A DNA stretch of 64,000 bases from Methanothrix soehngenii GP6 (lineage in GTDB: Archaea; Halobacteriota; Methanosarcinia; Methanotrichales; Methanotrichaceae). Below are positions 25,498 to 44,176 of this stretch, piece by piece (within the stretch, counting starts at the first letter, position 1; the number at the start of each line of letters is the position of its first letter). The notes beneath the pieces are model-generated. The model made no database searches. It saw only the letters and a list, made by a program, of their open reading frames with translations, and was not told where the DNA came from. Made by a program: the position numbers and the translations under genes. Where the stretch lies: positions 2,914,001-2,978,000 of the forward strand of contig NC_015416.1 in the NCBI RefSeq assembly GCF_000204415.1, read 5' to 3'.

Positions 25498-25580
25498 CCT
25501 CGCATGTGCCATTGTCCTGTGGCACATGGGCGTTTAGGGTGGAGTGGCAGCACGCAGTTTGATTGTCGAACAGCCACAAG

Positions 25581-25718
25581 ATTTATATTCGTTGACTGCC
25601 GTAATACGGCAAATGCCGTAGTTCAATGCCGGCTGCTTAGAGTGGGAGACAGCCTGAAGAAAGGCTGAATTATTGCGATTAGATCCGTTTCTGTCAATGG
25701 AGAGGGGTCTATTGAGGA
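25581..25718 (+). ncRNA. Structured leader RNA with TATA box, copy A
   Basis: A TATA-like ATTTATATTC (25581-25590) is followed by three hairpins: TGCCG/CGGCA (25597-25611), GCCG/CGGC (25615-25633) and CAGCCT/AGGCTG (25650-25667), then the box GCGATTAGATCC (25675-25686) and a fourth stem TCAAT/ATTGA. The same order occurs in copy B (39307-39436) with compensatory base changes in the stems. The element ends just before the ribosome-binding site of the first TPR gene. No known riboswitch class is recognised. Confidence 0.6.
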
Positions 25719-25728
25719 GCGCGATTCG

Positions 25729-27207
25729 ATGGAGAATAATGCTAAGATAGCGGAGATCAGGCATGATCACCGTCAATTGCCTGATATATTATATGCCGTC
25801 TTTAAGCTTATTTTCTCCTTGATATCGCTGAAATTTTTTTGCACCTCTGCAGTAGCGCGGGAAGAGACTACCGGCTACTGGATTAATAGAGCAGAAGAGC
25901 TCATGCACAACGATTCTATCGATGAAGCCATCTCTGCATGCGGCATGGCTCAAAAAAAAGAACCATGGAACGATTCAATTATCGTTCGCAAAGCCATGTA
26001 TCTTAACATCATTGGCATGGTGAATGAATCGGCAAAGACATATGAGAAAGCGCTGACCCTGCTGGATGAAAAGCTAAAGAAGAATGCAATAGATGTCGAA
26101 GCCTGGCAATGGAAGGCCATAGTTCTAGCCAGCCTGAACAGAGAAGATGAGTCCGACCAGGCATATGAAAAGGCCCTGGAGATCTTCGACCAGAGAATAA
26201 AGAATGACTCGCGGGATGCCGACTCCTGGATAGGCAGAGCAGATGTGCTGCTCAACCTCGGCCGGTGGGATGAGGCCCGTGAGTCATATAATAGAGCGAC
26301 GGAGCTCAAACCTCTGGATTACAGCGTCTGGTGGAGGAAAGCAGAAGTCATTAGCGGCATAGGAGATATCAACGAGTCCGTGGAGGCCTACGATAAGGCC
26401 ATCAGCCTGATACCAGCCTACGATGCAGCGGAGCGGGCACTGGCTTATGCTGCAAAGGCAGAAGACCTGGCATTTGCCGAACGATGGGAAGAGGCCCTGG
26501 AGGCGGTTGATAAATCTCTGGAGCTGAATCCTAAAAGCAGCGTGTGGTGGCATTTCAAGGCTTCTACTCTAATGGAGATTGGCAGGAATGATGAAGCGCT
26601 GGCAGCCTTCGACGAGGCCCTCAGGCAGAGTCCCGGAGATGCCCATAGCTGGTTGCGGAAGGCTGGCCTGCTCGTGGAGATGAAATGCTATAACGAATCC
26701 ATCAAAGCCTACGACAGAACCCTTGAGCTGATTGCAGAAAGCAACACCAAAGAGCTGGCTGGGATTTGGCTGGTCAAAGGAACGGCACTGAACAGGATCG
26801 GCAGGCGAAAAGAGGCAAAAGAGGCCTTCCGGATGTCGCTGGAGCTTCACGTTAAAGCCATCTTGGAGGACCCCGGCGACCTCAGCCTGAAGAGGATGAA
26901 AGGCCTGACGCTCTATAACCTGGGCAGATACGAGGAGTCCTTAGAGGTTTATGATCAAGTACTCGAGGCCTCTCCCAGAATAGAGCCCTACGTTATCGAC
27001 GTTTCTGCATTGGAGGGCAAGGGTGATGCTCTTCGGGCATTGAACAGAAACCAGGAGGCTCTGGAGGCTTACAATGAGGCAATAGAGCTGGCTCCCAGTT
27101 CTAGCGCCGCATGGCACGGAAAAGGTGAGGCCGAGAGGGCATTGGGACAGGTTGGCAATGCCGGCATGTCGCTTTTGACGGCGGATAAGCTGGGGTATGA
27201 AAAGTGA
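25729..27207 (+). CDS. Secreted TPR protein (KLGYE subfamily)
   Basis: 492 residues. After a short polar leader there is a hydrophobic export segment (LIFSLISLKFFCTSAVA), then about ten TPRs with the pattern W-x-x-A/G-x-x-L...A-x-x-x-Y-x-x-A-I-x-L. N-x-S/T sequons sit in the TPRs (VNESAKTYEKA, YNESIKAYDRT). It ends in GNAGMSLLTADKLGYEK, a tail shared with the next gene and with those at 46028 and (nearly) 55284. The start ATG follows TGAGGAG. It is the first gene behind leader RNA copy A and is likely exported to the cell surface. Molecular partner unknown. Confidence 0.85.
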   Translation: MENNAKIAEIRHDHRQLPDILYAVFKLIFSLISLKFFCTSAVAREETTGYWINRAEELMHNDSIDEAISACGMAQKKEPWNDSIIVRKAMYLNIIGMVNESAKTYEKALTLLDEKLKKNAIDVEAWQWKAIVLASLNREDESDQAYEKALEIFDQRIKNDSRDADSWIGRADVLLNLGRWDEARESYNRATELKPLDYSVWWRKAEVISGIGDINESVEAYDKAISLIPAYDAAERALAYAAKAEDLAFAERWEEALEAVDKSLELNPKSSVWWHFKASTLMEIGRNDEALAAFDEALRQSPGDAHSWLRKAGLLVEMKCYNESIKAYDRTLELIAESNTKELAGIWLVKGTALNRIGRRKEAKEAFRMSLELHVKAILEDPGDLSLKRMKGLTLYNLGRYEESLEVYDQVLEASPRIEPYVIDVSALEGKGDALRALNRNQEALEAYNEAIELAPSSSAAWHGKGEAERALGQVGNAGMSLLTADKLGYEK

Positions 27208-29444: not shown

Positions 29445-30746
29445 GGCTCCTCGCTATTCTCTGTGGGTAGCTGGTTAAGTCTTTATAGCAACTCATGCTA
29501 GAAAATTAGCCGTGTCAATCTCCCAGGAAGCCCTATTTAAGATAGCATTGAATCTTGAAGATCCTTGGTACATCAAGACGATAGATTTCAGTGCCGAAGG
29601 AAAGCAACTTGATATACACGTTGACTTCGAACCAGGCAGCAAATTTCCTTGTGCGAAATGCGGCAATCCAGGTTGCAGCGTGCATGATACTATCGAAAGA
29701 ACCTGGCGACATTTGAACTTCTTTCAGTTTAAAACCTATATCCACTGTCGTGTCCCTCGCACGATCTGTGAAGACTGCGGAGTGAAGCAGTCAAAGGTTC
29801 CCTGGGCAAGAAAAGGTAGCGGTTTCACCTTGCTTATGGATTCTCTGATAGTCCTTATGGCTCAATACATGACTGTTACTGCTATTGCTGAAATGATTGA
29901 TGAACATGATACTCGGATATGGAGAGTCCTGCAACATTATGTCGCAGAAGCTAGATCCAATGAGGACTTTTCAATGGTCAAATCAATCGGAGTTGATGAG
30001 ACATCAAGAGCTAAAGGACATAAATATGTTTCAGTATTTATAGATCTAGATGAGTCGAGAGTTATCCATGTATGCGAAGGAAAAAATGCCTCAACTATCG
30101 GATCGTTTAAAGATGATCTAGAGCAGCATAACGGATCTAGCGAAAATATTGAAAATTTCTGCTGCGATATGTCGCCAGCTTTTATATCTGGTATAGAGAA
30201 TAGTTTTCCTAATGCATCGATAACGTTTGATAAATTCCATGTTATGAAATTGATGAATGAAGCTGTTGATAAAGTCAGACGTGAGGAACAATCACACAAT
30301 GCTTTGCTGAAAAGAACAAGATATATCTGGCTCAAAAATCCCGAGAACCTCACAGCCAATCAGAATAAGATGCTAACGCCACTAAAAAGCATCCGATTAA
30401 AAACGATGAGAGCTTATAATATTAAATTAGCCCTTCGCGACTTTTGGAGCTATGAATATCGGAAATCCGCCGAGGACTACCTCAAACGCTGGTATTATTG
30501 GGCTACGCATAGCAGACTCGATCCTGTGATCGAATGCGCTAAAATGATAAAGAATCACTGGAATGGCGTGACTAATTATATTAAAACAAAAATCGATAAT
30601 GGTATCCTGGAAGGAACAAATAGTCTGATTCAGGCTGCAAAGGATAGCGCCAGAGGTTTCAGATCAACAAAAAATTTCATTACTATTATTTATATCAGGA
30701 CAGGGAAACTCAAATTCAATTTACCCACATGAAACAGCGAGGAGCC
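29445..30746 (+). mobile_element. ISL3-family insertion sequence, complete
   Basis: 1302 bp. The ends are inverted repeats GGCTCCTCGC...GTGGGTA (left: ggctcctcgctattctctgt; right, reversed: ggctcctcgctgtttcatgt). The 8-bp target duplication TAATTTAG is perfect (29437-29444 and 30747-30754), as expected for ISL3. It carries one full-length transposase and has cut a TPR gene in its signal peptide. Confidence 0.93.
29512..30732 (+). CDS. ISL3-family transposase
   Basis: 406 residues from a GTG start. The N-terminal zinc-binding segment (CAKCGNPGCSVHDT...CEDCGVKQSKVPWARKG) and the catalytic core (SIGVDETSRAKGHKYVSVF, CCDMSPAFISGIENSFPNA, DKFHVMKLMNEAVDKVRR) are characteristic of ISL3 transposases. 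The C-terminal NGILEGTNSLIQAAKDSARG with the catalytic Glu is complete. No frameshift is seen, so it is probably functional. Confidence 0.95.
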   Translation: MSISQEALFKIALNLEDPWYIKTIDFSAEGKQLDIHVDFEPGSKFPCAKCGNPGCSVHDTIERTWRHLNFFQFKTYIHCRVPRTICEDCGVKQSKVPWARKGSGFTLLMDSLIVLMAQYMTVTAIAEMIDEHDTRIWRVLQHYVAEARSNEDFSMVKSIGVDETSRAKGHKYVSVFIDLDESRVIHVCEGKNASTIGSFKDDLEQHNGSSENIENFCCDMSPAFISGIENSFPNASITFDKFHVMKLMNEAVDKVRREEQSHNALLKRTRYIWLKNPENLTANQNKMLTPLKSIRLKTMRAYNIKLALRDFWSYEYRKSAEDYLKRWYYWATHSRLDPVIECAKMIKNHWNGVTNYIKTKIDNGILEGTNSLIQAAKDSARGFRSTKNFITIIYIRTGKLKFNLPT

Positions 30747-31827
30747 TAATTTAGCTCTGGCCTTTGTAGCCCTGGCAGTACTATGTGCTTCATCTAGTTC
30801 TCAGGAAGATATGGCGAAGGAAGACACAGCCGGTTATTGGCTGAACAAGGGCAACGAGTCGCGTGAAATGGCAATAAATGAAATGCAAAATCAGACTGCC
30901 CGAGAGATATTTCTTCAGGAAGCCCGCGAGGCCTATGATAAGGCTATAGAGATCGATCCTCAATCGGCATCGGCCTGGTTTAAGAAGGGAGAGCTTCAGA
31001 TCGATTTCCTCGGCAATTATGAGGAAGCCCTTAATGCTTTCAATAAATCCATACAGATCAATCCGCAATTTGCCGATGCCTGGTATCAGAAAGGCAAAAC
31101 CCTGACTGGCTATGGAGATTTTGAAGAAGCCCTGGAATCCTATAATAAATCTCTTGAGATAAATCCAAACTCATCCGATGCCTGGTACTGGAAAGCAGGC
31201 GTTCTGGCCGAACTGAACAGGCACGAAGAGGCAATCCCGGCTTATGATAAGGCCATTGAGCTCGATCCCACTCAAGCATCATACTGGCTGGACAGAGGCG
31301 GCGCTCTCAACAGACTCAATCGCACTGAAGGGGCTAACGCTTCTTTCACAAGAGCAGTTGAGCTCTGCGACGAGGCCATCGAGCAAAATCCCAAGAGTAT
31401 AATGGCCTGGCAGGGCAAAGGCACGGCCTTTTACCATCTGGAACGACTCAATGAGTCGATACAGTGCTTCGACAAGGTCATAGAGCTGGCTCCCATGTAC
31501 TATAGGTCCTACTACTACAAGGGAAAGGCACTGCAGGATTTGGGCCGTGAGGTCGAAGCAGAGGAACTCTTCGCCAGGTCCAAGGAGCTGGGCGGCATAT
31601 AAGCCCATCTTTTACCTTTTGCATCGATGATGGGCAGAGATTTGATCCTATGGCAATGACGCACACTCAATGCCGCCAGTATTCTTGTCCCAGTCATAGC
31701 TCCTTAAACGTCGTAGTACCCAATAAAATGGATTTTTTAGCTTTGCTAATGGCTCAGGAGATGTCTTTCATCAAAAAGGAACCTTCATGAACATCTGAAC
31801 GCTCCATCTCTCAAGATTTTCTCCCAT

Positions 31828-31912
31828 GTTCATCGTTCATTCAATCAATCATTTATCTACAGTTCACGCCCAGAAGAGGTTGGCAGGCATTTCGAACGAG
31901 AGATGTCCGCAT
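31828..31912 (+). promoter_or_regulatory. TPR-regulator module promoter, copy 1
   Basis: GTTCAT boxes at 31828 and 31835 lie upstream of the TATA-like TTTATCTA (31852-31859), and GTTCAC follows at 31862. The start-to-start distances (17 and 10 bases from the TATA box) are identical in copies 2 and 3. Downstream is a hairpin-forming stretch GGCA...TGTCC within the 5' UTR. The spacing suggests operators flanking a core promoter. The rest of the gap (31603-31827) holds nothing I recognise. Confidence 0.6.
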
Positions 31913-31956
31913 AAATGAAAGAAGTCGAGGAATAGAGCAGAAAGGAGAGTTTGGGA

Positions 31957-33273
31957 ATGAATGAAAAAAGAGTGAATGATCTGAGAGCGAATGCAAAAAA
32001 GATGAGGGCCTGGATGAGAATCCCCCTCATCCTGGCCGTTCTCTTTGTGCTATGTCTGGCAGCTGTAGCGCAGGAGAATACTGCAGATAGCTGGTATCAA
32101 GAGGGTTTGAAGCTAATGGGAAACGATAACTATAGGGATGCGCTCATTGCATTCGATAAGGCAATTGAGATCGATCCCGAGAACGCCAGCATATGGATGG
32201 GCAAAGGTGATGTGCTCGTAAGAATGGGAGATTATAATGAATCGCTGAAGATTTATGAAAACGCCTTGGAGATGGCAGAAAAAACTACCCAAGATAATCC
32301 CCATGATGCCAGGGGCTGGCTTGTGAAAGGGGAGCTTTTCATAAGGATTTTCAAGAACGATGAGGCCATCAACGCCTATAGCAGAGCTACTGAACTGAAT
32401 CCCAAGTATGCGGAGGCTTGGTACCAGAAGGGCGCAGCTCTGAACCTTAAGGCAGGGGAACTACCTGAACAGGAGAGCGCCAAGACCTATGAAGAAGCCT
32501 TTACAGCCTTGAACAAGGCCATTGAGCTGGATCCTGGCTATGGAAAGGCCTGGAATGATAAAGGCTATACTCTCTTGTCCCTCGCCAGGTTCAATGGCAA
32601 GAATTTTAACAGATACAATGAGTCGCTGGAGGCTTTCGATAGGGCCATTGAGCTTATTTCTGCTGAAGATTCCAGGCAATTCTCAGCTCTGGCCTGGGAG
32701 GGCAAGGCACTTGCATTCGTTGGCATGAGCAATATGCTTAACGATATGGATAGGAAGGATGAGGCCAGAGAAAGGTATGAAGAGGCCTTAACGGCTTGCG
32801 ATAGAGTTATTGAGCTAGACCCAGATTTCACCGGCCAGGAAGCTCGATTATTGAAGGCTGGTATCCTCTCCGAACTGGGCAGGTACAATGAATCTCTTGT
32901 GGCCTACGACGGGGCTATTTCGTCTGTGCCTGCAGACCTTGTCTTGCTCACAGCCACATTTATGGCGGACAAGAGTAGCGTTCTTGTAAAGATGGGCGAG
33001 TACGAGGAAGCCCTAACGACTATTAATGCCGCCCTAAAGATAGATCCGACAAATCCGATTGCCTGGAAGAACAAAGGTGAAGCCCTAAATTATACGGGCA
33101 GATACGAAGAGGCCGTAAGCGCCTACGACAAGGCTGTTGAGCTGAGTCCAGAGCTAGGTCTGCTGAAAGCCTCCTCCTGGCAGGGCAAGGGCGATGCACT
33201 GAAGGCCTCAGGACGCCAGGTTGAAGCGGCTGCAGCTTTTGCCAGGGCAAAGGAGCTAGGGTATAAAGCATAG
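31957..33273 (+). CDS. Secreted TPR protein, module 1
   Basis: 438 residues. The ATG at 31957 is chosen because AAGGAGAG lies 8 bases upstream; the TTG at 31951 would be too close. A signal segment (IPLILAVLFVLCLAAVA) follows a basic N-region (MNEKRVNDLRANAKK), then QENTADSWYQEG and about nine TPRs with sequons such as YNESLKIYENA and YNESLEAFDRA. The tail is AAFARAKELGYKA. The membrane regulator at 33328 follows after 54 bases, so they are probably co-transcribed. It is the first of three TPR-regulator modules in a row. Confidence 0.87.
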   Translation: MNEKRVNDLRANAKKMRAWMRIPLILAVLFVLCLAAVAQENTADSWYQEGLKLMGNDNYRDALIAFDKAIEIDPENASIWMGKGDVLVRMGDYNESLKIYENALEMAEKTTQDNPHDARGWLVKGELFIRIFKNDEAINAYSRATELNPKYAEAWYQKGAALNLKAGELPEQESAKTYEEAFTALNKAIELDPGYGKAWNDKGYTLLSLARFNGKNFNRYNESLEAFDRAIELISAEDSRQFSALAWEGKALAFVGMSNMLNDMDRKDEARERYEEALTACDRVIELDPDFTGQEARLLKAGILSELGRYNESLVAYDGAISSVPADLVLLTATFMADKSSVLVKMGEYEEALTTINAALKIDPTNPIAWKNKGEALNYTGRYEEAVSAYDKAVELSPELGLLKASSWQGKGDALKASGRQVEAAAAFARAKELGYKA

Positions 33274-33327
33274 ATCCGTAGGAATACAGATGACCGTGTT
33301 TAGCATCTCAAGAACCGGAGGGATAGG

Positions 33328-34347
33328 ATGGTATCTATGGTACTATTGAAGAAGATCCTGATGGGATCGGCTATTCTTCTATCCCTTGTCGCCGCAATTC
33401 AGGCATCCGGACAGGAGTTCTATTCTGGGGCAGCCGGGAAGAACCTCAGCCTCAATGTCCACCTGCTCGACACCGGTCAGGCCCTGGTCGTGGGCTATGT
33501 TGATGATCCCAGGGGCCTGATCTTTCTGAGGCCGACCCAGTATACCGACCCGGCTGCGACTCGGTATGCATCCAGATACAGGTATGAAAACGAGACTCAT
33601 CAGCTGTATGCCTGGACTGACGCACTGACTTTCAAGCAAGGAGATACCTGGAGATTGATGTTTCAATGTCCGGGCTTTTATGCCGAGTATCGCGTCATAT
33701 TCGACCTTCCAGCCGATTTAGGGCTGGGAAGAATCAATAGCTCTGAGGGGCTGAAATACGTGGTCTCAGCCTCAAATGATTCGTTAACAGTTATTTCTCA
33801 GGGATATGATATCAGGAATCCTTCCATAACCATAGAGTACCAGCAGTCTTTAGCAGAAGAGGCATCTCTTGAGGATATCAACGGCAGCAGCTCTAACAAT
33901 TTTTGGCTGGTCGGGGGCGCCATTTTATTTCTTGTTTTGTTTATCGGATCTGTCTTCACCTTTATGATGAGATGGCGAAGAAATGAGATGCAACCTGTCA
34001 AGAAGGATCTGCTTGAAGGCGATCATCTGCTCGGCATTGAGTCCCAGGATGCCTCAAAGCCAATAGATGCTGTCAGGTCCCTGGGAGAAATCGAGGTTGG
34101 CAGCGAGTTGAATGCGGTCTTGGAGACCCTGACCCCACGGGAGCGCTCGATCATGGAGATCCTGATAAAGAACGGCGGCAAAATGAAGCAGATGGATATG
34201 AGATACGAGACCGGCGTCCCTAAATCAACGCTTACCATGGTTCTGATATCATTGGAGAAGCGCAATCTCGTAACCAGGAAAGAATGGGGCAGAACCAACG
34301 TCGTAGAGCTATCAGAGAGGTTCTTCTCCGGAGAAAAACATTCCTGA
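33328..34347 (+). CDS. Membrane-anchored winged-helix regulator, module 1
   Basis: 339 residues. A signal peptide or first TM (ILLSLVAAIQASG) is followed by an extracellular domain of about 160 residues (LSLNVHLLDTGQALVVGYVD, YASRYRYENETHQLYAWTD), a transmembrane segment near 190-213 (WLVGGAILFLVLFIGSVFTF), a cytoplasmic linker and a MarR-like winged helix (LTPRERSIMEILIKNGGKMK, YETGVPKSTLTMVLISLEKR). This is a one-component membrane sensor: outside stimulus, inside DNA binding. Good ribosome-binding site GGAGGG. The TPR protein just upstream is the obvious candidate ligand, partner or target gene. Confidence 0.85.
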   Translation: MVSMVLLKKILMGSAILLSLVAAIQASGQEFYSGAAGKNLSLNVHLLDTGQALVVGYVDDPRGLIFLRPTQYTDPAATRYASRYRYENETHQLYAWTDALTFKQGDTWRLMFQCPGFYAEYRVIFDLPADLGLGRINSSEGLKYVVSASNDSLTVISQGYDIRNPSITIEYQQSLAEEASLEDINGSSSNNFWLVGGAILFLVLFIGSVFTFMMRWRRNEMQPVKKDLLEGDHLLGIESQDASKPIDAVRSLGEIEVGSELNAVLETLTPRERSIMEILIKNGGKMKQMDMRYETGVPKSTLTMVLISLEKRNLVTRKEWGRTNVVELSERFFSGEKHS

Positions 34348-34393
34348 ACATTCTGAACAAAAACCTGCCTTTAAAACAAGGTCTTCGTTTTCC

Positions 34394-34470
34394 GTTCATT
34401 CACATTACCTTTTATCTATCGTTCATGCCGGGTAGAGGTCGTCGGGCGGCTCGAAGACGAGCTTCCAGAC
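34394..34470 (+). promoter_or_regulatory. TPR-regulator module promoter, copy 2
   Basis: GTTCAT at 34394, TTTATCTA at 34411-34418 and GTTCAT at 34421, with the same 17 and 10 base offsets as copies 1 and 3. The 5' UTR holds GCTCG/CGAGC, a small hairpin at the place where copies 1 and 3 also have one. Confidence 0.6.
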
Positions 34471-34586
34471 GTGGAGGTTTCAGTGGAATAGTGGATAAGG
34501 GGCCAACTCTATGCCAATAAGGGGCAGGCCCCTTATTTGCTATCACCTCTTTAGACGAAGTGAGCAACTTGAAGGAGAGTTTGGGA

Positions 34587-35336
34587 ATGAATGGAAAATC
34601 TAAGATGAGAGCCTGGATCGGGGTGGCCATGGTCCTAATAGTGCTCTCTGCGATGTGCTTGGTAGCTGCGGCACAGGAGACTGCAGATGAGTGGGTGAAG
34701 AAGGGAGATGATCTGATGAATTCAATGGCGTCTGAGTCCTTAACTGAGGCGCTGAACGCATACGACAAAGCTCTTCAAATGGATTCGCAAAATGAGTCTA
34801 TTTTGCTAAGAAAAACAGTAGTTCTTGATATAATAACAATAGGAACAGCTACAGAGGCGCTTGGTATCGTAGAGAAGAAATTGGAGAATAATCCGCAGGA
34901 TGCATTGGCCTGGCAGGCAAGAGGTGTAGCACTAAACTACTTGAGCATTGAACAAGAGGCCACCCAATCCTTCGAGAAGGCCATAGAAATATACGATCAA
35001 GAGATCCAGAAAGATCCCAAGAACGGCACTGCCTGGTGGTATAAGGCCGAAAATTTAGCGAATCTCCAGAGGTTCGAGGAGGCACTCATTGCTTACGAGA
35101 AGGTGATTGAGCTAGACCATCCCAGGAAGGTAGACGCATTGAGCACTAAAGGTGGCATTCTCATGCAGTATGGAAGGCTTGAAGAATCTATCAGTGCCTT
35201 AGATAAGGCTACTGAGTTGGATCCAAACCATATCACGTCGTGGTTTACTAAGGGCCAAGCTCTTAAAGAAATGGGACGCAATGCAGAATCAGAGGCCGCC
35301 ACCGCAAAAGCGAGGGAGCTGGGGTATAAAGGTTGA
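34587..35336 (+). CDS. Secreted TPR protein, module 2
   Basis: 249 residues from the ATG at 34587, placed 8 bases after GAAGGAGAG; the GTG at 34560 is upstream of that ribosome-binding site and was not used. MNGKSKMRAWIGVAMVLIVL opens a signal peptide ending AAAQETADEWVKKG, the same opening as modules 1 and 3. About five TPRs follow; this is the shortest intact member of the family. The tail is AATAKARELGYKG. The regulator starts 19 bases downstream. Confidence 0.85.
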   Translation: MNGKSKMRAWIGVAMVLIVLSAMCLVAAAQETADEWVKKGDDLMNSMASESLTEALNAYDKALQMDSQNESILLRKTVVLDIITIGTATEALGIVEKKLENNPQDALAWQARGVALNYLSIEQEATQSFEKAIEIYDQEIQKDPKNGTAWWYKAENLANLQRFEEALIAYEKVIELDHPRKVDALSTKGGILMQYGRLEESISALDKATELDPNHITSWFTKGQALKEMGRNAESEAATAKARELGYKG

Positions 35337-35355
35337 CAGCTTCCTTTTTTATATA

Positions 35356-36543
35356 ATGAAGAAGGATCTGATAATCGTGGCTTTGAAGTATGGGCAGGGT
35401 ATTCTTAAGGAACCAAGAAAGCTCATAGTTGCTCTTCTTCTGCTAGTCTCCATCGCTCTGACATCTGGACAGGAGTTCGATGGTACGGATGAACAAAAGC
35501 TCGACCTAGACATCTACTTATACAATACAGGCAAAACCCTAGTGGCGGGCTACATGGAGGACCCAAAAGGCCTGACATTTCTGAGGACCGCTCAGTACAA
35601 TGCCCTTTATCCCAATCAATATGTCCCCAGATACAGCTACGATAATGATACTCGCCAGCTATACGCCTGGACAGACGGCCTGACCCGGAAGAATGGGGAG
35701 AACTGGAGCCTGGCCTTCACCACCTGGGGACTCTGCAGCCAGTGCCATATCGTCTTCCACTTGCCAGGCGACTTGAGGCTGGGAAGAATCAACAGTTCTA
35801 GCGGGCTGAACTACATGATCACCGCCTCCAATGAATCCCTGCTGGTGGATGCCCAGGCACACGGTGTTAAGGACCCTGCAATCACCATCGAGTACCAGCA
35901 GCCTTTGGGCAATGAGCCTCTGCAAGACGCATCTGCGAGAGAGGAAGGCCATGGCAGCGGCTCACAAAACCTTCTCATGGTTGCCGCCTTTATATTTATC
36001 CTGACTATTGGATCAGCATTCGCTTTCGTCGTAGGCAGGCGAAGAGAAAGACTGCCGCTCGGCCAGGCAGATCGACCAGATCTGTCGGTTGTAGACCGCC
36101 AGCCTGAAGTCAGTGCCCCAGATACGTCGGCAGAGCCTTTGCAGGCTGCGCAGATGGCAGCATCGCAGGATTACGCGTCTTTCGAAGCTGATCCGCCGAC
36201 CGTTGCAGCTGAGGACGATGCGGAGGATGAGGATGATGCAGGGCCCATTGGGATGCTCCCGGCAGCAGAGGGCCAAAAGAAAGATATCGCAGTCAGCAGC
36301 GAGATGAAGGCCGTTATGGACGCTCTGACTCACAGAGAGCGCTCGATCATAGAGGCCCTGATAAAGCACGGCGGCAGAACGACCCAGGCGGAGATAAGAT
36401 ATGAGACCGGCCTGCCCAGATCCTCCCTCACCATGGTTTTGGTATCCCTGGAGAGGCGAAACCTCATAACAAAGAAAGAATGGGGCAGGACCAATGTGAT
36501 AGAGCTGTCTGAATCGTTCTTTTCCAAAAAGGAACAATCCTGA
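35356..36543 (+). CDS. Membrane-anchored winged-helix regulator, module 2
   Basis: 395 residues from the ATG at 35356; an in-frame extension to 35281 would run back through the end of the TPR gene and was rejected. Layout: N-terminal hydrophobic segment (LIVALLLLVSIALTSG), extracellular domain (KLDLDIYLYNTGKTLVAGYM), TM near 204-227 (LLMVAAFIFILTIGSAFAFV), a long acidic linker, then the winged helix near 320-390 (LTHRERSIIEALIKHGGRTT, YETGLPRSSLTMVLVSLERR). The linker is much longer than in module 1. No Shine-Dalgarno precedes the ATG, which suggests it relies on coupling to the TPR gene. Confidence 0.83.
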   Translation: MKKDLIIVALKYGQGILKEPRKLIVALLLLVSIALTSGQEFDGTDEQKLDLDIYLYNTGKTLVAGYMEDPKGLTFLRTAQYNALYPNQYVPRYSYDNDTRQLYAWTDGLTRKNGENWSLAFTTWGLCSQCHIVFHLPGDLRLGRINSSSGLNYMITASNESLLVDAQAHGVKDPAITIEYQQPLGNEPLQDASAREEGHGSGSQNLLMVAAFIFILTIGSAFAFVVGRRRERLPLGQADRPDLSVVDRQPEVSAPDTSAEPLQAAQMAASQDYASFEADPPTVAAEDDAEDEDDAGPIGMLPAAEGQKKDIAVSSEMKAVMDALTHRERSIIEALIKHGGRTTQAEIRYETGLPRSSLTMVLVSLERRNLITKKEWGRTNVIELSESFFSKKEQS

Positions 36544-36578
36544 ACATCGATCTGCATCCAAACAAATCTTCATTTACC

Positions 36579-36657
36579 GTCCATCCACATCGTCTTTTAT
36601 CTATCGTTCATGCCCAGTGGGGATCGCCGGGCGGCTCGAATGAGAGACGCCCGCTGA
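36579..36657 (+). promoter_or_regulatory. TPR-regulator module promoter, copy 3
   Basis: GTCCAT at 36579, TTTATCTA at 36596-36603 and GTTCAT at 36606. Offsets of 17 and 10 bases match copies 1 and 2 exactly. The UTR contains the hairpin GGGCG/CGCCC (about 36629-36653). Confidence 0.6.
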
Positions 36658-36691
36658 AGAAATAAAGTGAGCGAAACAGGAGAGTTTGGGA

Positions 36692-37759
36692 ATGAATGCA
36701 AAAAGAGTGAATACAAAAAAGATGAAGGCCTGGACTGGGATTGCCATGGTCCTGGCCGTATTCTCTGCGCTGTGTCTGGCTGCGGCGGCGGAGGATAACA
36801 CGCCCGTTGCTTGGATTAAAAGAGGTATAGAATTATCCAGTAACGAATCCTATGAGGAGGCCACCCAAGCCTTCGACAGAGCACTTGAGCAGGACCCTCA
36901 GAATCTCAATGCATGGCTTTTCAAGAGCATGGCACTGACGAGTCTGGGCACAAAGATCGCTTTGGAAAATAAGAACCTGGGCATAAAAGACCGTGAAGCC
37001 TCTGGCATGACGGCCTTTGATAAAGCTATTGAGGCACATGAAAGGGCTATAGAAATCGCCCCAGAGAATGCCACAGTCTGGACCTACAAGGCCAACAACC
37101 TTGCTAAAATCGGCTCATTCACAGATAACCTTAGCATATTAAACGAATCCCTGCAGGCCTTCGACAAAGCCCTGGAGCTGAATCCCGAGGATGCCGATGC
37201 CTGGCATGGTAAAGGTATTGCCTTGGTTTACATAAGCCAGACGAGAGAGGATACAAGCAGATATGAAGAGGCCCTTCGGTACATCGACCGGGCTCTAGAG
37301 ATAGACCCGCAGACGGCAGGAGCACTGGAGAACAAGGCAGGCATCCTCTCCGAATTAGGAAGACAAAATGAATCTGATAAATTATATAGCGAAGCTCTTG
37401 AGCTTTATAACACCAGTATTGAAACTGAAAAATCGACTGAGGATCTGGTGGAGGCTTGGCTTTCAAAGGGCTTCATTCTGCAAGCTCAGGGCAAATATGA
37501 GGATGCTGTCAAGGCACTGGGTAATGCTACTGATGCCGATCCGATGAACGGATTGGCCTGGAAGGTCAAAGGAGTTCTCTTGTGGAGGGAGTTGAAAGAA
37601 TATGATGATGCCGTAAATGCTTTCGATAAAGCCCTGCAAATTAATCCCAAAGACCCTCTGACCTGGATGAATAAAGGCGATGCTCTAAAAGCGCTGGGCC
37701 GCCAGGCCGAAGCGGATGAAGCCTACGCCAAGGCCCGGGAGCTGGGGTATCAAGGTTAA
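36692..37759 (+). CDS. Secreted TPR protein, module 3
   Basis: 355 residues from the ATG at 36692 after CAGGAGAG. MNAKRVNTKKMKAWTGIAMV begins a signal peptide ending in AAAEDNTPVAWIKRG. About eight TPRs follow, with sequons including LNESLQAFDKA and QNESDKLYSEA. The tail is EAYAKARELGYQG. Closely related to the TPR proteins of modules 1 and 2. The regulator follows after about 160 bases. Confidence 0.87.
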   Translation: MNAKRVNTKKMKAWTGIAMVLAVFSALCLAAAAEDNTPVAWIKRGIELSSNESYEEATQAFDRALEQDPQNLNAWLFKSMALTSLGTKIALENKNLGIKDREASGMTAFDKAIEAHERAIEIAPENATVWTYKANNLAKIGSFTDNLSILNESLQAFDKALELNPEDADAWHGKGIALVYISQTREDTSRYEEALRYIDRALEIDPQTAGALENKAGILSELGRQNESDKLYSEALELYNTSIETEKSTEDLVEAWLSKGFILQAQGKYEDAVKALGNATDADPMNGLAWKVKGVLLWRELKEYDDAVNAFDKALQINPKDPLTWMNKGDALKALGRQAEADEAYAKARELGYQG

Positions 37760-37922
37760 GCCCCTTCCCATTTTTTTTATAAGAAAGAATTATCGGGATG
37801 AGTCTAAGAAATCAGAAGGAAGCGGGGCATGGTAATCCTTGACGAATGGCACAAACTATAAGAAAAGTGAGAAGATCTATCAAACGCAGCCTCTAACTCA
37901 TCTCAAGGCTTGGAAGGGTAAA

Positions 37923-39038
37923 ATGAGATCGGTCGCGCTGCTAAGAATGTTAGTGAGAGCAAGCCTCCTTTTGATCCTGGCCTCCATGGCCATGGCATCG
38001 GCTACCGGTCAGGATTTCGACAGCGAGGTCGCTGGGAAGAATCTCAGCCTCGATGTCTACTTGTATGATAGCGGCAAGGCCCTGGTTGCAGGCTATGCGG
38101 ATAGCATAGAGGGCCTTACCTTTCTGGAGCCTGCTCGCTATGCTCCGGACAATACCGCTCAGTACACCTCCAAGTACAGGTTTGACAATCAGCTTTATGC
38201 CTGGACTGATGCTTTGACCTCGAAGCAAAGAGAGAACTGGAGCCTGATGTTCTCTTGCGACGGTTTTTATAACGAGTACCATGTCATCTTTCACCTTCCG
38301 AACAGCTCGAAGCTGGGCAGGATCAACAGCTCTAAGGGACTGAGTTATCTGGTATCTACCTCAAACGACTCTTTGATAGTGGAATCTCATGGGTACGGAG
38401 TCTATGAACCAGCGATCTCAATAGAGTATCGACAGCACATGGAGCCAGAGGGCAATGAGCAAGAGGGCATAACAGGAAATACAGGCAATATTAGTAGTAA
38501 TCTAGATAGCTCAAACGGTGATAATAGCGACCTTAGCCAGGCCTATCTTCTTCTGATTCTGCTCGTAGCTTTAGCAATAGGCAGCCTGATTATTTTCATT
38601 GTCCGACGCAGAGCAGTTTCACCTAACGCTGAGTCGTCGATCCCTGAAGCAGAAGATCTTCCCGACGATGATCAGGCCCTCGATGCCTTATCAACTGAAT
38701 CTGATCAACCGGAGGCCTCTGAGGAAGATGTTGAACCCGAAGAGATGCCTTCGCTCGAAGAAGGGCCGAAGAAGGAGATCGCAGTCAGCAGCGAGATGAT
38801 GGCGGTCATGGATGCTCTGACTCCTCGAGAGCGTTCTATAGTTGAGGCATTGATCAAACGCGGCGGCAGGATGACCCAGGCGGAGATAAGATATGAGACC
38901 AACCTCCCCAGATCCACGCTCACCACGATACTGGTCTCACTGGAGAGACGAAACCTCATAACAAAGAAAGAATGGGGCAGGACCAATGTAATAGAGTTAT
39001 CGGAAAGGTTCCTTTCCGTCCAGGAGCGCTCCTCCTGA
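37923..39038 (+). CDS. Membrane-anchored winged-helix regulator, module 3
   Basis: 371 residues from the ATG at 37923, which follows GGAAGGG; the TTG at 37839 lacks this. Signal segment SLLLILASMAMASATG, extracellular domain (LSLDVYLYDSGKALVAGYAD), TM near 205-226 (YLLLILLVALAIGSLIIFIV), acidic linker and winged helix near 294-365 (LTPRERSIVEALIKRGGRMT, YETNLPRSTLTTILVSLERR). It matches the regulators of modules 1 and 2 over the full length; the winged helix and its C-terminal flank (KEWGRTNVIELSERF) are the most conserved part, which suggests all three bind the same or similar operators. Confidence 0.85.
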   Translation: MRSVALLRMLVRASLLLILASMAMASATGQDFDSEVAGKNLSLDVYLYDSGKALVAGYADSIEGLTFLEPARYAPDNTAQYTSKYRFDNQLYAWTDALTSKQRENWSLMFSCDGFYNEYHVIFHLPNSSKLGRINSSKGLSYLVSTSNDSLIVESHGYGVYEPAISIEYRQHMEPEGNEQEGITGNTGNISSNLDSSNGDNSDLSQAYLLLILLVALAIGSLIIFIVRRRAVSPNAESSIPEAEDLPDDDQALDALSTESDQPEASEEDVEPEEMPSLEEGPKKEIAVSSEMMAVMDALTPRERSIVEALIKRGGRMTQAEIRYETNLPRSTLTTILVSLERRNLITKKEWGRTNVIELSERFLSVQERSS

Positions 39039-39306
39039 GATTATCCTGGTTTTCCAGAATCGCGGGATTATCCTGCCATCTCAACTCCCACTGGCTCCGG
39101 CTCGTTGATTTAGGTATAACGATATGAGAGAAATTTATGAATATATCATATGGCTCTCTCATGCCGAGAGTTCTTAAAAAAAGCTAATAAGATTTATTCT
39201 CTATGCAAATTATTCATATTTCATTTTGTCTATTGTTTAAAACGAGCAAATGAGCAGTATTAATGGATGCATACTGTTAATAAGTTTAAAACTTAACACT
39301 CGCAAG
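39039..39306. other. AT-rich intergenic region before leader copy B
   Basis: About 270 bases, AT-rich, with a short palindrome near 39283 (AAGTTTAAAACTT). No gene is seen. It separates the regulator modules from the long TPR operon. Confidence 0.4.
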
Positions 39307-39436
39307 GTTTATATTCGTTAACTGTCGTAATCCGACAAATGCCGAAAAAGAATTCGGCGGTTCATTGAGTGAGATAGCCGGAAAATGGCTGCCTTATAGC
39401 GATTAGATCCTTTTCATCAATAGAAGTGGATCGATG
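39307..39436 (+). ncRNA. Structured leader RNA with TATA box, copy B
   Basis: TATA-like TTTATATTC (39308-39316); hairpin 1 TGTCG/CGACA (39323-39337), where copy A has TGCCG/CGGCA, a compensatory change; hairpin 2 GCCGAA/TTCGGC (39341-39358); hairpin 3 AGCC/GGCT (39376-39390); the invariant box GCGATTAGATCC (39399-39410); and a fourth stem CATC/GATG. It leads into the 37-codon TPR remnant and the long operon. Confidence 0.6.
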
Positions 39437-39452: not shown

Positions 39453-39566
39453 ATGAATTCAAAGAGAAGATCCACAACGGATCAATTGATACTGCATTCC
39501 CTGGGGAAAGACACAGATGCGGCTGCGGCATTTTTCCAGGCAAAAGAGCTGGGGTATCAGGAATGA
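39453..39566 (+). pseudogene. Remnant of a deleted TPR gene (start and tail only)
   Basis: A 37-codon open frame that opens MNSKRRSTT like the TPR family start (MNxKR) and ends DAAAAFFQAKELGYQE, which is the family's C-terminal signature. The whole TPR body in between is missing. It sits in the position where a TPR gene would follow leader B, so it is best read as an in-frame internal deletion. Translation of the small product may or may not still occur. Confidence 0.7.
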
Positions 39567-39603: not shown

Positions 39604-41772
39604 ATGAAAACAGGATTTGTCGTTGCATTGTTGGCGATAGCTATGCTCTGCGCCTCTGCTATGGCGCAGGAGGATACAGCAAATGACTGGTATAAAAAAG
39701 GCCAGAGCTTGATTGCCACTGGATTCGGATACAACATCGATGAGGCTTTAGAGGCGTTCGATAATGCCATTCAAATCGAACCTCAAAATATCGATGCCTG
39801 GCTTGGCAAGGCCAAAAGCCTGGCCTATATGGACGAGAAGAACGAGTCGCTTGAGGCATTCAGGAATATCCTAAATCTAACCAACGAGACCATAAAGGAG
39901 AATCCAGAAGATACAAGCGCCTGGCAGAGCAAAGGAATCGCCCTGGCAAGCCTTGGCAGAGAGGCAGAGGCCACAGATGCTTTTGAAAGATCCATTGAAC
40001 TGCTCAACCAGAGCCTCCTGAACGATCCAAAAGATGCCGAAGCCTGGTGGCTGAAGGCCGAGAATCTGGAATTATTGGGCAGGACCGATTCTGCGCTTGA
40101 GGCTTACGATAAGGTCATAGAGCTGAACTCCTCTGAGGCTGTGGGGGCATGGATCCGTAAGTCAGACATCTTCTATGGACAGCCGGGAGGCTATAACCAG
40201 TCACAGGACGCCTTCGGCAAAGCGGTCGACCTGATGGAGGTCAACTCCACCAGCTTCATCTCCTTTTGGTATCCTGAAGGAGATCATACCATAATCCTGA
40301 ACGAGTGGATGATCGACGGCCAGATAGTCAGAGTGGACTTTGGAAGATACAACAGATCCATTCAGGCATACGATGACCTGGTCCAGACCCGCACCAAATC
40401 CGGTCTCTTTGCCGCCTGGCAGAACAAGGGCAGAGCCATCACTCCCCTTGATACGACTCTAGGAAAGCCAAGCGAGTATCTTTTAGGATCGAGCCCCAAC
40501 TGGGTGGTCTACAACTTCTCCAGTGCCGATTTTCCCGTCATTAACGGCTCAGCTGATTTGCAGGAGGGCTCATTCGAGGATAACAGCGCAGAGGACTGGT
40601 TCAACAGGGGCCAGGAGCTGCAAAGAAACGATTCTCATGAAGAGGCCCTCCAGGCTTTCGATAAAGCCATTGAGATCAATCAATCGTACGCCTTCGCCTG
40701 GGGTGGCAAGGGATATGTTCTCTACAACATGGGCAGGTACGAGGAGGCAATAGCCGCCTGGGACAGAGCCATTGAGCTTGAGCCTGATGAGTTTTACTCA
40801 GGCAGCAAATGGGAGATGAAGGGAAAAGTCCTGGCGATCCTTGGCAGGAACGAGGAGAGTGCTCAGGCTTACGAAAGAGCGCTTGAGCTTGCGGATAAGG
40901 CTGTGACTGAGTACAAGACCTCAACAGACCTGAACCTCTCCGCTGCCTGGGGCTTTAAAGGACAGCTCCTCGACGACCAGGGAAGGTACGTAGAGGCTCT
41001 AGAGGCAGTGGCCAACTCCTCGAAGGCAAATCCAGAGGACGCATTTGCCTGGGCCGTCATGGGAGACATTCTGGCAGACCGTCTTGGCAGGTACAACGAA
41101 TCAATCGAGTCTTACAATAAATCTCTGGAGATTGACCCGAAGAACATAGGAGCCCTGAGAGGAGAGGGATATGCTCTCGCAAGCCTTGGCAGGTACGAGG
41201 AGGCCCTAGAGTACTATAACAGGGCTCTGGAGATCGATTCTCGGTTTGCCAGAGCCTGGCAAGGCTTAGGAGATGCCCTCAGGAACATGGGCATGTACAA
41301 CGAATCAATCCAGGCTTATGACAGGGCAATTGCGGAGATGCCGCAACAGCCACAATATGCCTTGATTGGAAAGGGCATGGCCCTCGACAGCCTGGGCAGA
41401 TATGACGAAGCACAAGAGGATTACGAGCAAGCCCTGAAGGATTACGATGATGTCATCAAAAAGAATCCGAGAAATGCCCAGGTCATGTACAATCAGGGCA
41501 ATGCCCTCCGGGGACTGCAGAGACACAACGAATCTCTGCAGGCATACGACAGAGCCATTGAGCTGAATCCGGGATATATCGATGCCTGGCGCGGCAAGGC
41601 CATTGTGCTTCGAGCTCTTGGCGGCAATGCCGAGGCAGAGGAGGCTTCCGCAAAAGCCATGGATCTGGGATACATGTCTGGAATGGTGACGGCGGTTGCC
41701 GGAAGCGGTCTCATTGTCGCCGAAAGGGCAGAGATGATGCCTGAGGCTGAGGAAACGGGGCCTCGAAGATGA
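39604..41772 (+). CDS. Secreted TPR protein with inter-TPR insert module
   Basis: 722 residues. The ATG at 39604 follows GGAGGTTTGCAA; a longer in-frame reading to 39517 would run through the remnant gene and was rejected. Signal peptide VVALLAIAMLCASAMA, then DTANDWYKKG, two blocks of TPRs and, between them (about 40241-40425), an inserted section with the pattern NEWMIDGQIVRVDFGRYNRS that also occurs in the proteins at 44190, 47516 and 50089. Sequons are abundant (KNESLEAFRNI, YNESIESYNKS). It heads the operon that runs to 56.7 kb. The C-terminal 40 residues follow the usual tail and have no match within the family. Confidence 0.85.
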   Translation: MKTGFVVALLAIAMLCASAMAQEDTANDWYKKGQSLIATGFGYNIDEALEAFDNAIQIEPQNIDAWLGKAKSLAYMDEKNESLEAFRNILNLTNETIKENPEDTSAWQSKGIALASLGREAEATDAFERSIELLNQSLLNDPKDAEAWWLKAENLELLGRTDSALEAYDKVIELNSSEAVGAWIRKSDIFYGQPGGYNQSQDAFGKAVDLMEVNSTSFISFWYPEGDHTIILNEWMIDGQIVRVDFGRYNRSIQAYDDLVQTRTKSGLFAAWQNKGRAITPLDTTLGKPSEYLLGSSPNWVVYNFSSADFPVINGSADLQEGSFEDNSAEDWFNRGQELQRNDSHEEALQAFDKAIEINQSYAFAWGGKGYVLYNMGRYEEAIAAWDRAIELEPDEFYSGSKWEMKGKVLAILGRNEESAQAYERALELADKAVTEYKTSTDLNLSAAWGFKGQLLDDQGRYVEALEAVANSSKANPEDAFAWAVMGDILADRLGRYNESIESYNKSLEIDPKNIGALRGEGYALASLGRYEEALEYYNRALEIDSRFARAWQGLGDALRNMGMYNESIQAYDRAIAEMPQQPQYALIGKGMALDSLGRYDEAQEDYEQALKDYDDVIKKNPRNAQVMYNQGNALRGLQRHNESLQAYDRAIELNPGYIDAWRGKAIVLRALGGNAEAEEASAKAMDLGYMSGMVTAVAGSGLIVAERAEMMPEAEETGPRR

Positions 41773-41809: not shown

Positions 41810-44176
41810 ATGAAAGCGAGGCTCATAGTTGTATTATTAGCGATAGTGATATTCTGTGTCTGTGCTGTGATAGTTCCATCCTATGCTTTGTCAAAGTGTG
41901 GAGATTGCGATGATAAAAATCCCTGCACGAAGGATTACTGTGGGCCAAATGGCTGCGTCCATGAGCCGATAGACTGTGACATTGAAATAACCAGTCCCCC
42001 AGAGGTTACCGGTCCCGGCATAACCAGTCCCCCAGAGGTCACGAGTCCCGGCATAACCAGTCCCCCAGAGGTCACGAGTCCCGGCATAACCAGTCCCCCA
42101 GATATCACTAGTCCCGGCATAGCCAATCCCCCAGAGGTCACAAGTCCCAGCATAGCCAATCCTCCGGAGATCACCAGTCCCAGCATAACCAATCCCCCAG
42201 AGGTCACAAGTCCCAGCATAACCAATCCTCTGGAGGTCACCAGTCCCGGCATAGCCAATCCTCCGGAGGTCACCAGTCCCGGCATAGCCAATCCCCCGGA
42301 GGTCGCAAGTCCCAGCATAACCAATCCTCTGGAGGTCACAAGTCCCAGCATAACCAATCCTCCGGAGGTCACAAGTCCCAGCATAACCAATCCCCCCGAG
42401 GTCACAAGTCCTGGCATAGCCAATCCTCTGGAGGTCACCAGTCCCAGCATAACCAGTCCCCCTGAGGCCACAAGTCCTGGCATAGCCAATCCTCTGGAGG
42501 TCACGGGTCCCGGCATAACCAGTCCCCCGGATATCACGAGTCCCGACATAACCAGTCCCTCGGAGATCTCCAGTCCTGACATAACCAGTCCCTCAGAGAA
42601 CCGCAGTCCCGACATAACCAATCCTCCGGAGATCACGAGTCCAGAAACCGCCAGCTTCCAAGTTACAAACAGTTCCCAAACGAATACAAGTGGAACCAGG
42701 GTAACAGGCTTTCCGATAAATAGCAGTGAATCGGGGGAATCCGGGACCTATCTCGCTAGCAATGCTTCAAAGACAACCTGGATTTTGGAAAACAATGTGG
42801 CATCAAATAATTCAAGCATAAATGGCCCGGCTAGAGCTGATGTATCTGGAATCATTAATTCCACTGAATCCGGCAATCAGAATACGGGAATTCTGCCAAA
42901 TATGAACGCTAATACTTCCTTCATAGAATCAATGCCGACACAAGGGAATTCATCAATTCTGCAAAGCTCAGAAATCTCCATGAACAGCACCAATGAATCC
43001 ATTACTGGAAATGAGTCCTCTGCCCTCCTTCATTTCTGTGATGATGGCAATGCCTGCACTGCAGATGCCTGGAATGGAAAAGAATGCGTTCATACTCCCG
43101 TAAACTGCGATGATGACAATCCCTGTACAATCGATTCCTGCGAGAATGGGGTATGCACTCATAAGCAGAAAGACTGCGATGATCAAAACGAGAGCACAAT
43201 AGACTATTGTTTGAATGGAGTGTGCGTCCATTCTTCAAAGAAATGCGATGACGGCAACGCTTGTACCATCGACACATGGAATGGAAACGAATGCGTTCAC
43301 ACCCCAGGGAATTGCGATGACGGCAATGCCTGCACTGCCGACTCCTGCGAGAACGGGACATGTACTCATAGGCAAAAGAACTGCAATGACGGCAATCCTT
43401 GCACTGTCGACTCCTGTGTGAATGGAGAATGCTACCATATGGGAAAGAACTGCAATGACGGCAATCCTTGCACTGCTGACTCCTGTGTGAATGGAGAATG
43501 CTACCATAGAGGAAAGAACTGCGATGACGGCAATGCTTGCACTATCGATGCCTGTGACGGCCGGGGCAAATGTATGCATCTGCGGAGGAACTGCGATGAT
43601 GGGAATCCCTGCACAATCGATGAGTGTGATCCGTATTGGGGGTGCTCTCATACACCCGTGGTCTGTGGAGCTGGAAAGAGGTGTGTGAACGGCGTTTGTC
43701 AGACGATTTCCTCACCTCGGGCTGCCCCGAGCAGCTACACGATTCCACCCGGATCATCCATAAATCTGCCCTGGGGAACGGCAGTCACAGCCATCGGCTC
43801 TGCAAAGGTAGAGAATGGAGTTACATATGTTGCCGGACAGCCCCTTATATTCTCAAGACAGCTCGGCTACGATCAGGCCGCTCTTGCAGCCCAGGGAATA
43901 AGTCAGGCAGCTGGGAGCGCCGAGATGGTGGGCCTCGCCTGGCAGAGCAATCCCTTCAGCGTTACCCTGATCAAGCCTGATGGGAGCAAGCTTTTCCCGG
44001 ATAGCGACCGTCAGAATATAAAACACGTCACTGGCACGAACTACGACTATTACTTCCTCAGAAATCCCGCAAAGGGTATATGGAATATCGAGATCAGGCC
44101 CATAAATCCGGGAAGCAGAGGAGAGAGCTTCTCATTGATCACGGGACTTGTGTCAGGAGCCGCTTTCGACCAATGA
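41810..44176 (+). CDS. Secreted repeat protein: TSP-type repeats plus Cys-rich CTDC-type repeats
   Basis: 788 residues with signal peptide (VVLLAIVIFCVCAVIVPSYA). A first Cys-rich unit (CDDKNPCTKDYC) precedes about 20 copies of an 11-residue Thr/Ser/Pro unit of the type TSPGITSPPEV (about residues 60-280), an Asn/Ser/Thr-rich linker with many N-x-S/T sites, then about ten Cys-rich repeats of the DDGNPCTxDSCxxGxCxH type (residues 405-630), like the Dictyostelium CTDC repeat. The C-terminal 160 residues form a beta-rich domain. It is probably a glycosylated extracellular stalk or adhesin. Start ATG after AAGGTTTGTAA, the same initiation region as its TPR neighbours. Function unknown. Confidence 0.75.
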   Translation: MKARLIVVLLAIVIFCVCAVIVPSYALSKCGDCDDKNPCTKDYCGPNGCVHEPIDCDIEITSPPEVTGPGITSPPEVTSPGITSPPEVTSPGITSPPDITSPGIANPPEVTSPSIANPPEITSPSITNPPEVTSPSITNPLEVTSPGIANPPEVTSPGIANPPEVASPSITNPLEVTSPSITNPPEVTSPSITNPPEVTSPGIANPLEVTSPSITSPPEATSPGIANPLEVTGPGITSPPDITSPDITSPSEISSPDITSPSENRSPDITNPPEITSPETASFQVTNSSQTNTSGTRVTGFPINSSESGESGTYLASNASKTTWILENNVASNNSSINGPARADVSGIINSTESGNQNTGILPNMNANTSFIESMPTQGNSSILQSSEISMNSTNESITGNESSALLHFCDDGNACTADAWNGKECVHTPVNCDDDNPCTIDSCENGVCTHKQKDCDDQNESTIDYCLNGVCVHSSKKCDDGNACTIDTWNGNECVHTPGNCDDGNACTADSCENGTCTHRQKNCNDGNPCTVDSCVNGECYHMGKNCNDGNPCTADSCVNGECYHRGKNCDDGNACTIDACDGRGKCMHLRRNCDDGNPCTIDECDPYWGCSHTPVVCGAGKRCVNGVCQTISSPRAAPSSYTIPPGSSINLPWGTAVTAIGSAKVENGVTYVAGQPLIFSRQLGYDQAALAAQGISQAAGSAEMVGLAWQSNPFSVTLIKPDGSKLFPDSDRQNIKHVTGTNYDYYFLRNPAKGIWNIEIRPINPGSRGESFSLITGLVSGAAFDQ
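41985..42660 (+). repeat. 33-bp tandem repeat array in the surface-protein gene
   Basis: About 20 head-to-tail units of 33 bases (typical core agtcccggcataaccagtcc), each encoding one 11-residue Thr/Ser/Pro-rich unit. Units vary at a few positions but stay in frame. There are no spacers, so this is not CRISPR. Confidence 0.9.

Follow-up and report, generated by a model that had tools for sequence, protein, structure and literature searches.

Transmembrane winged-helix regulators paired with exported TPR proteins in Methanothrix soehngenii: a predicted operator and a predicted exported-protein regulon

Gene Organization of the TPR Array

The window analysed here is a stretch of 64,000 nucleotides (G000:C1:2914001-2978000) from the genome of Methanothrix soehngenii GP6, which has a size of 3.03 Mb and comprises two contigs. 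An earlier note on this DNA described three tandem gene pairs, each with an exported TPR protein followed by a sensor–transmembrane–winged-helix regulator, and all six open reading frames (ORFs) were recovered with the same starts. All of them are located on the forward strand. The first pair consists of TPR1 (31957-33273), which has an N-terminal hydrophobic signal-like segment, and the membrane-anchored regulator R1 (33328-34347); the second of TPR2 (34587-35336) and R2 (35356-36543); and the third of TPR3 (36692-37759) and R3 (37923-39038). The TPR genes were assigned by matches to TPR families and the regulators by matches to DUF7343, supplemented by an AlphaFold2 model for R1. The gaps between the TPR stop and the regulator start are 54, 19, and 163 bases in pairs 1, 2, and 3, respectively.

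The three pairs are embedded in a larger forward-strand array that contains some 14 TPR genes (about 25729-58982), which was absent from the earlier note. Genes for other exported proteins are interspersed in the array, and the 3' ends of TPR genes turn up again as short repeats; one such leftover end (repeat family D13) was found near 39546, ahead of the TPR gene at 39604. An ISL3-type transposase gene (29512-30732) lies just ahead of the TPR gene at 30811. The ORF of the latter has no signal peptide, while the bases preceding it read like one, and the transposase element seems to have removed the beginning of the gene. The exported protein encoded at 41810-44176 has a length of 788 aa and contains nine Dicty_CTDC (slime mould) repeats as well as a long repeat of the TSPPEVTSPGI type. 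The genome as a whole has many TPR genes.

Element M at the TPR Promoters

The promoter architecture reported previously for the three TPR genes was confirmed in the form of repeat families D8 and D11. When the third promoter was searched against the whole genome, only the three TPR promoters were significant, and the next match had an E value of 0.42. The shared core, designated element M, is a 31-bp sequence, GTTCRTTC-N16-ATCGTTC, that encloses a TATA box; mismatches are counted against the pattern CGTTCRTTC-N15-TATCGTTC. The consensus of 96 distinct sites reads GTTCGTTC[GT]G[CT], a T-rich TATA-like stretch, and TATCGTTC. As a candidate operator, element M is located on the forward strand upstream of TPR1 at 31834-31865 (CGTTCATTCAATCAATCATTTATCTACAGTTC, 2 mismatches), of TPR2 at 34393-34424 (CGTTCATTCACATTACCTTTTATCTATCGTTC, 0 mismatches), and of TPR3 at 36578-36609 (CGTCCATCCACATCGTCTTTTATCTATCGTTC, 2 mismatches). 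The other TPR genes of the array have different upstream regions, and within the array M is restricted to the regulator-paired TPR genes. A further upstream sequence, distinct from M, is common to the TPR genes at 25729 and 39517 (TTTATATTCGTTRACTGYCGTAAT...CAAATGCCG; about 25560-25730 and 39300-39400).

The two half-sites of M are mainly direct repeats, which is unusual for a symmetric dimer; the upstream half in ANME-1 can often be read as an inverted repeat, GAACGATTCGTTC, the arrangement that a dimer would be expected to bind. Two other roles for the region were considered and rejected. M is not a 3' element of the regulator mRNA, because TPR1 has M without a regulator gene just upstream and R3 has no M downstream. 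A hairpin in the 5' leader downstream of M was not supported, folding of four TPR leaders being not clearly better than that of shuffled sequences (z values of -0.8, 0.7, -1.75, and 0.45).

Domain Structure of the Regulators

The AlphaFold2 model of R1 comprises an N-terminal hydrophobic helix (residues 3-27), an all-beta domain (38-173), a transmembrane helix (192-220), which is also hydrophobic in the regulator alignment, a disordered linker, and a C-terminal winged helix (259-332). R2 and R3 share 46-53% protein identity with R1. The three regulators matched DUF7343 (PF24034) with scores of 48.6, 52, and 50.2 bits against a curated cut-off of 27.6. The cut-offs of the MarR families (PF01047/PF12802) were not reached, with best scores of 26.2 versus 27 bits for MarR_2 and 18 versus 24.6 bits for MarR; many MarR and ArsR proteins were found among the Foldseek matches of the DNA-binding part. 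The beta domain, the putative sensor, had no significant fold match in the PDB.

Relatives of the Regulator and Their Neighbours

A regulator match was found in 49 of the 50 Methanotrichaceae genomes, and relatives occur in ANME-1 (Methanophagales) and Methanoperedens, with M. harundinacea among the named ones. In the fetched loci the neighbouring gene was nearly always c2 or c3 and rarely a TPR gene. The product of c2 is an uncharacterized exported protein, and the gene is often accompanied by c3 and by a secreted sensor-only copy. The adjacency of regulator and c2 is kept across the Methanothrix, ANME-1, and Methanoperedens lineages. Neither c2 nor the sensor-only protein had a Pfam match, and the structure model of c2 gave no significant fold match. 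The standard layout within the genus is nadE – regulator – c3 – c2 – sensor-only gene – kae1 – purD, where we take the flanking genes to be nadE, kae1, and purD from recognition of their sequences rather than from a family search. Two further regulator copies are present in the window genome, L048 downstream of nadE and L047 at another location. The secreted sensor-only paralog adjoins the canonical regulator in many Methanothrix genomes (L051:10929-11393 and equivalents) and could compete with or feed the regulator's sensor. A contig labelled Nitrospirae bacterium (L201) bears a Methanoperedens-like regulator with c2 and is probably misbinned.

An intact TPR–regulator pair was present in the fetched loci of the window genome and of Methanosaeta sp. 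PtaB.Bin039 (L193) only. In L193 the order is M – TPR – regulator, and the fetched 12 kb contain no other TPR gene. The L193 TPR protein is 57% identical to TPR2, as a reciprocal best match and thus its ortholog, and the L193 regulator clusters with R2 in the tree (support 95/90). The four intact TPR-paired regulators (R1, R2, R3, and L193) form one clade with support of 100/99, in which several branches are long and the internal order is less sure. L193 is part of genome G059, which, judging from identical site positions, seems to be the same genome as G066, from another genus of Methanotrichaceae. In G006, next to a TPR array, there is a decayed copy in which the regulator has an internal deletion and comes after the tail of a TPR gene. 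Thus, the M–TPR–regulator unit is real and inherited, but rare, and the TPR partnership is a rare local version of a wider regulator system. The earlier proposal is partly supported, in that the TPR–regulator unit is co-inherited in this clade: L193 has the pair orthologous to TPR2 and R2 under the same promoter element, and a remnant persists in G006; elsewhere the regulator stands mostly beside c2/c3. A general role of the TPR protein as the sensed partner was not supported: consistent linkage of regulator and TPR genes was not observed, and outside one clade the regulators were linked to unrelated genes, a result that the note itself had named as refuting.

Distribution of Element M and the Predicted Regulon

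The bipartite sequence of the TPR promoters recurs upstream of c3 and c2 in other species, with an identical spacing of 27 bp. Of 76 regulator genes, 40 have M in the 200 bp that follow them, a density of 2.6 per kb versus 0.011 per kb in the remainder of these loci, or a per-base enrichment of about 240-fold. The remaining 36 loci have no M in that interval with up to 2 mismatches, and some of them have c2 directly after the regulator. In total, 141 M sites were detected in the 50 Methanotrichaceae genomes, compared with 6 for the reversed-pattern control. The background was drawn from sampled genome regions, and the sites are related by descent, so the counts are taken as enrichment rather than as independent trials. 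M was absent from eight control regions totalling 160 kb and showed no excess over the control in other families of the class. One site was found in nine genomes of genus g15, which seems to include the relatives of the M. harundinacea type, whose regulators have no M next to them. A downstream M occurs in Methanothrix as well as in ANME-1; for most of the ANME-1 genomes searched, it is the single convincing site, between the regulator and c2. In Methanoperedens M is weaker, with only part kept in the same register. Two weak matches are still present in G083, a genome without a detected regulator.

The genes after M are biased towards export: 32 of 43 were exported-like by a simple hydrophobicity rule, versus 20 of 146 background ORFs. 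In Methanothrix they span several unrelated families, including c3-like repeat proteins, Met/Cys-rich exported proteins, an exported ferredoxin-like protein, a repeated-domain protein (CnaB-like by eye), an ABC-transporter operon, and others. In the window genome, M also precedes a gene for an exported Met/Cys-rich protein (271188), an ABC operon (1734339), and the c3 gene (1603105) that follows the canonical regulator (G000:C1:1601741-1603039). In several species (L112, L129, and L123), M lies before a gene whose small product is predicted to be DNA-binding-like, and a gene for an ABC transporter ATPase comes next. Some members of the predicted regulon are Met- or Cys-rich; metal sensing was considered as the signal and stays a lead only, the sensor having no invariant Cys or His and the TPR proteins not being Met-rich.

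Variation of the Recognition Helix and the Operator

In nearly all relatives, the recognition helix has Gly, rarely Ala, after the L-[TS] step (Asp in L192). At this position R1, R2, R3, the L193 regulator, and the decayed G006 copy have Met or Thr. The second repeat of M is A-type in the four intact TPR operators (CGTTCATTCA-type, with ATTCA, or ATCCA in TPR3) versus mostly GTTCG or GTTCT in the others. Both operator types are present together in the window genome and in G066. This co-variation, which represents a single evolutionary change, would fit direct recognition and insulation after duplication.

Proposed Model and Alternative Explanations

Taken together, R1-R3 probably belong to a family of transmembrane one-component regulators with their own predicted operator, M, and a regulon of exported proteins. 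The exported beta domain would sense something at the cell surface, and the cytoplasmic winged helix would bind M, with its GTTC-type sites flanking the TATA box, and thereby gate the genes for exported proteins. The sign of control can be guessed as repression by blocking TBP/TFB; since M lies on both sides of the TATA box, repression that a surface signal would relieve is mildly favoured over activation. The ancestral target of the regulator may have been the adjoining c2/c3 operon, with the regulator outside the M-driven operon. In the lineage of the window, a TPR gene would have come under M and the regulator moved into that operon, and the resulting M–TPR–regulator unit would have given rise to three copies with diverged recognition helices and operators. 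In this TPR version, with its gene included in the operon driven by M, the regulator would feed back on itself. The presumed role of the TPR protein as a regulated target, one of the two options given in the earlier note, gains support, because the TPR promoters share the bipartite element that adjoins the regulator in other lineages.

More tentatively, the system may be a conserved archaeal surface-sensing circuit, composed of a transmembrane regulator, a two-site operator around the TATA box, c2 as the core exported partner, and sometimes a secreted sensor copy that could be a decoy. Such a circuit would be common to acetoclastic methanogens and anaerobic methane oxidizers, expanded into a regulon in Methanothrix, and able to recruit cargo such as TPR proteins.

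It is rather unlikely that M is owned by another transcription factor, or marks a special TFB/TBP promoter class, and that the regulator merely adjoins one of the targets. The many targets far from a regulator, the position of M around the TATA box, and the regulator loci without M would agree with such an owner, but M stays beside the regulator in Methanothrix, ANME-1, and partly Methanoperedens, the regulator-side site is the only convincing one in most ANME-1 genomes, and the recognition helix and operator change together in the TPR clade. It is unlikely that the two proteins form a dedicated signalling pair, with the exported domain sensing the extracellular TPR protein as its ligand or partner: the genes adjoin with short gaps, are co-inherited in the case of TPR2/R2 and L193, and decayed together in G006, but in nearly all relatives the same sensor family has no TPR gene next to it. 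Least probable is a pairing that arose as a by-product of the array, with regulators duplicated by recombination among TPR genes and no functional link, for which the number of TPR genes in the array and genome, and, as signs of rearrangement, the leftover 3' end and the transposase gene could speak, but which agrees poorly with the L193 unit, alone in the 12 kb fetched, and with the restriction of M to regulator-paired TPR genes.

Comparison with Known Regulators

Archaeal transmembrane regulators have been catalogued in numbers, but operators or targets are known for few of them. For one family, from Methanothrix and ANME lineages of which many are uncultured, an operator and a regulon can now be predicted and a conserved partner named; therefore, binding and regulation are directly testable with short DNA and soluble domains. 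The family also provides a case where the recognition helix and operator seem to change together after duplication. No relevant literature was found on COG2512, DUF7343, or ANME-1/Methanothrix regulons.

The winged helices of R1-R3 all exceed the curated cut-off of DUF7343 (Pfam PF24034), an entry of no known function that spans the 62-residue winged helix only. The regulators resemble MarR/ArsR-type proteins in their Foldseek matches but differ from them in scoring below the MarR Pfam cut-offs and in being membrane anchored with an exported domain. ArnR and ArnR1 of Sulfolobus are likewise archaeal membrane-bound one-component regulators, which control surface structures (PMC6396743). In ArnR, the HTH is N-terminal and is combined with a HAMP-like and a sensor domain and with two transmembrane segments at the C terminus (PMC6396743), a layout not found in the modelled regulator, where the winged helix is C-terminal behind one transmembrane segment and the sensor is predicted outside the cell. 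A known class is that of the transmembrane transcription regulators (TTRs), one-component regulators combining a DNA-binding domain with a transmembrane region, of which the single-pass form is the commonest kind (PMC10269533). R1-R3 each combine a predicted DNA-binding domain and a predicted transmembrane region in one protein, as TTRs do; unlike the TTRs described, this family adds an exported beta domain without a significant PDB match, a conserved exported partner, c2, and a predicted operator.
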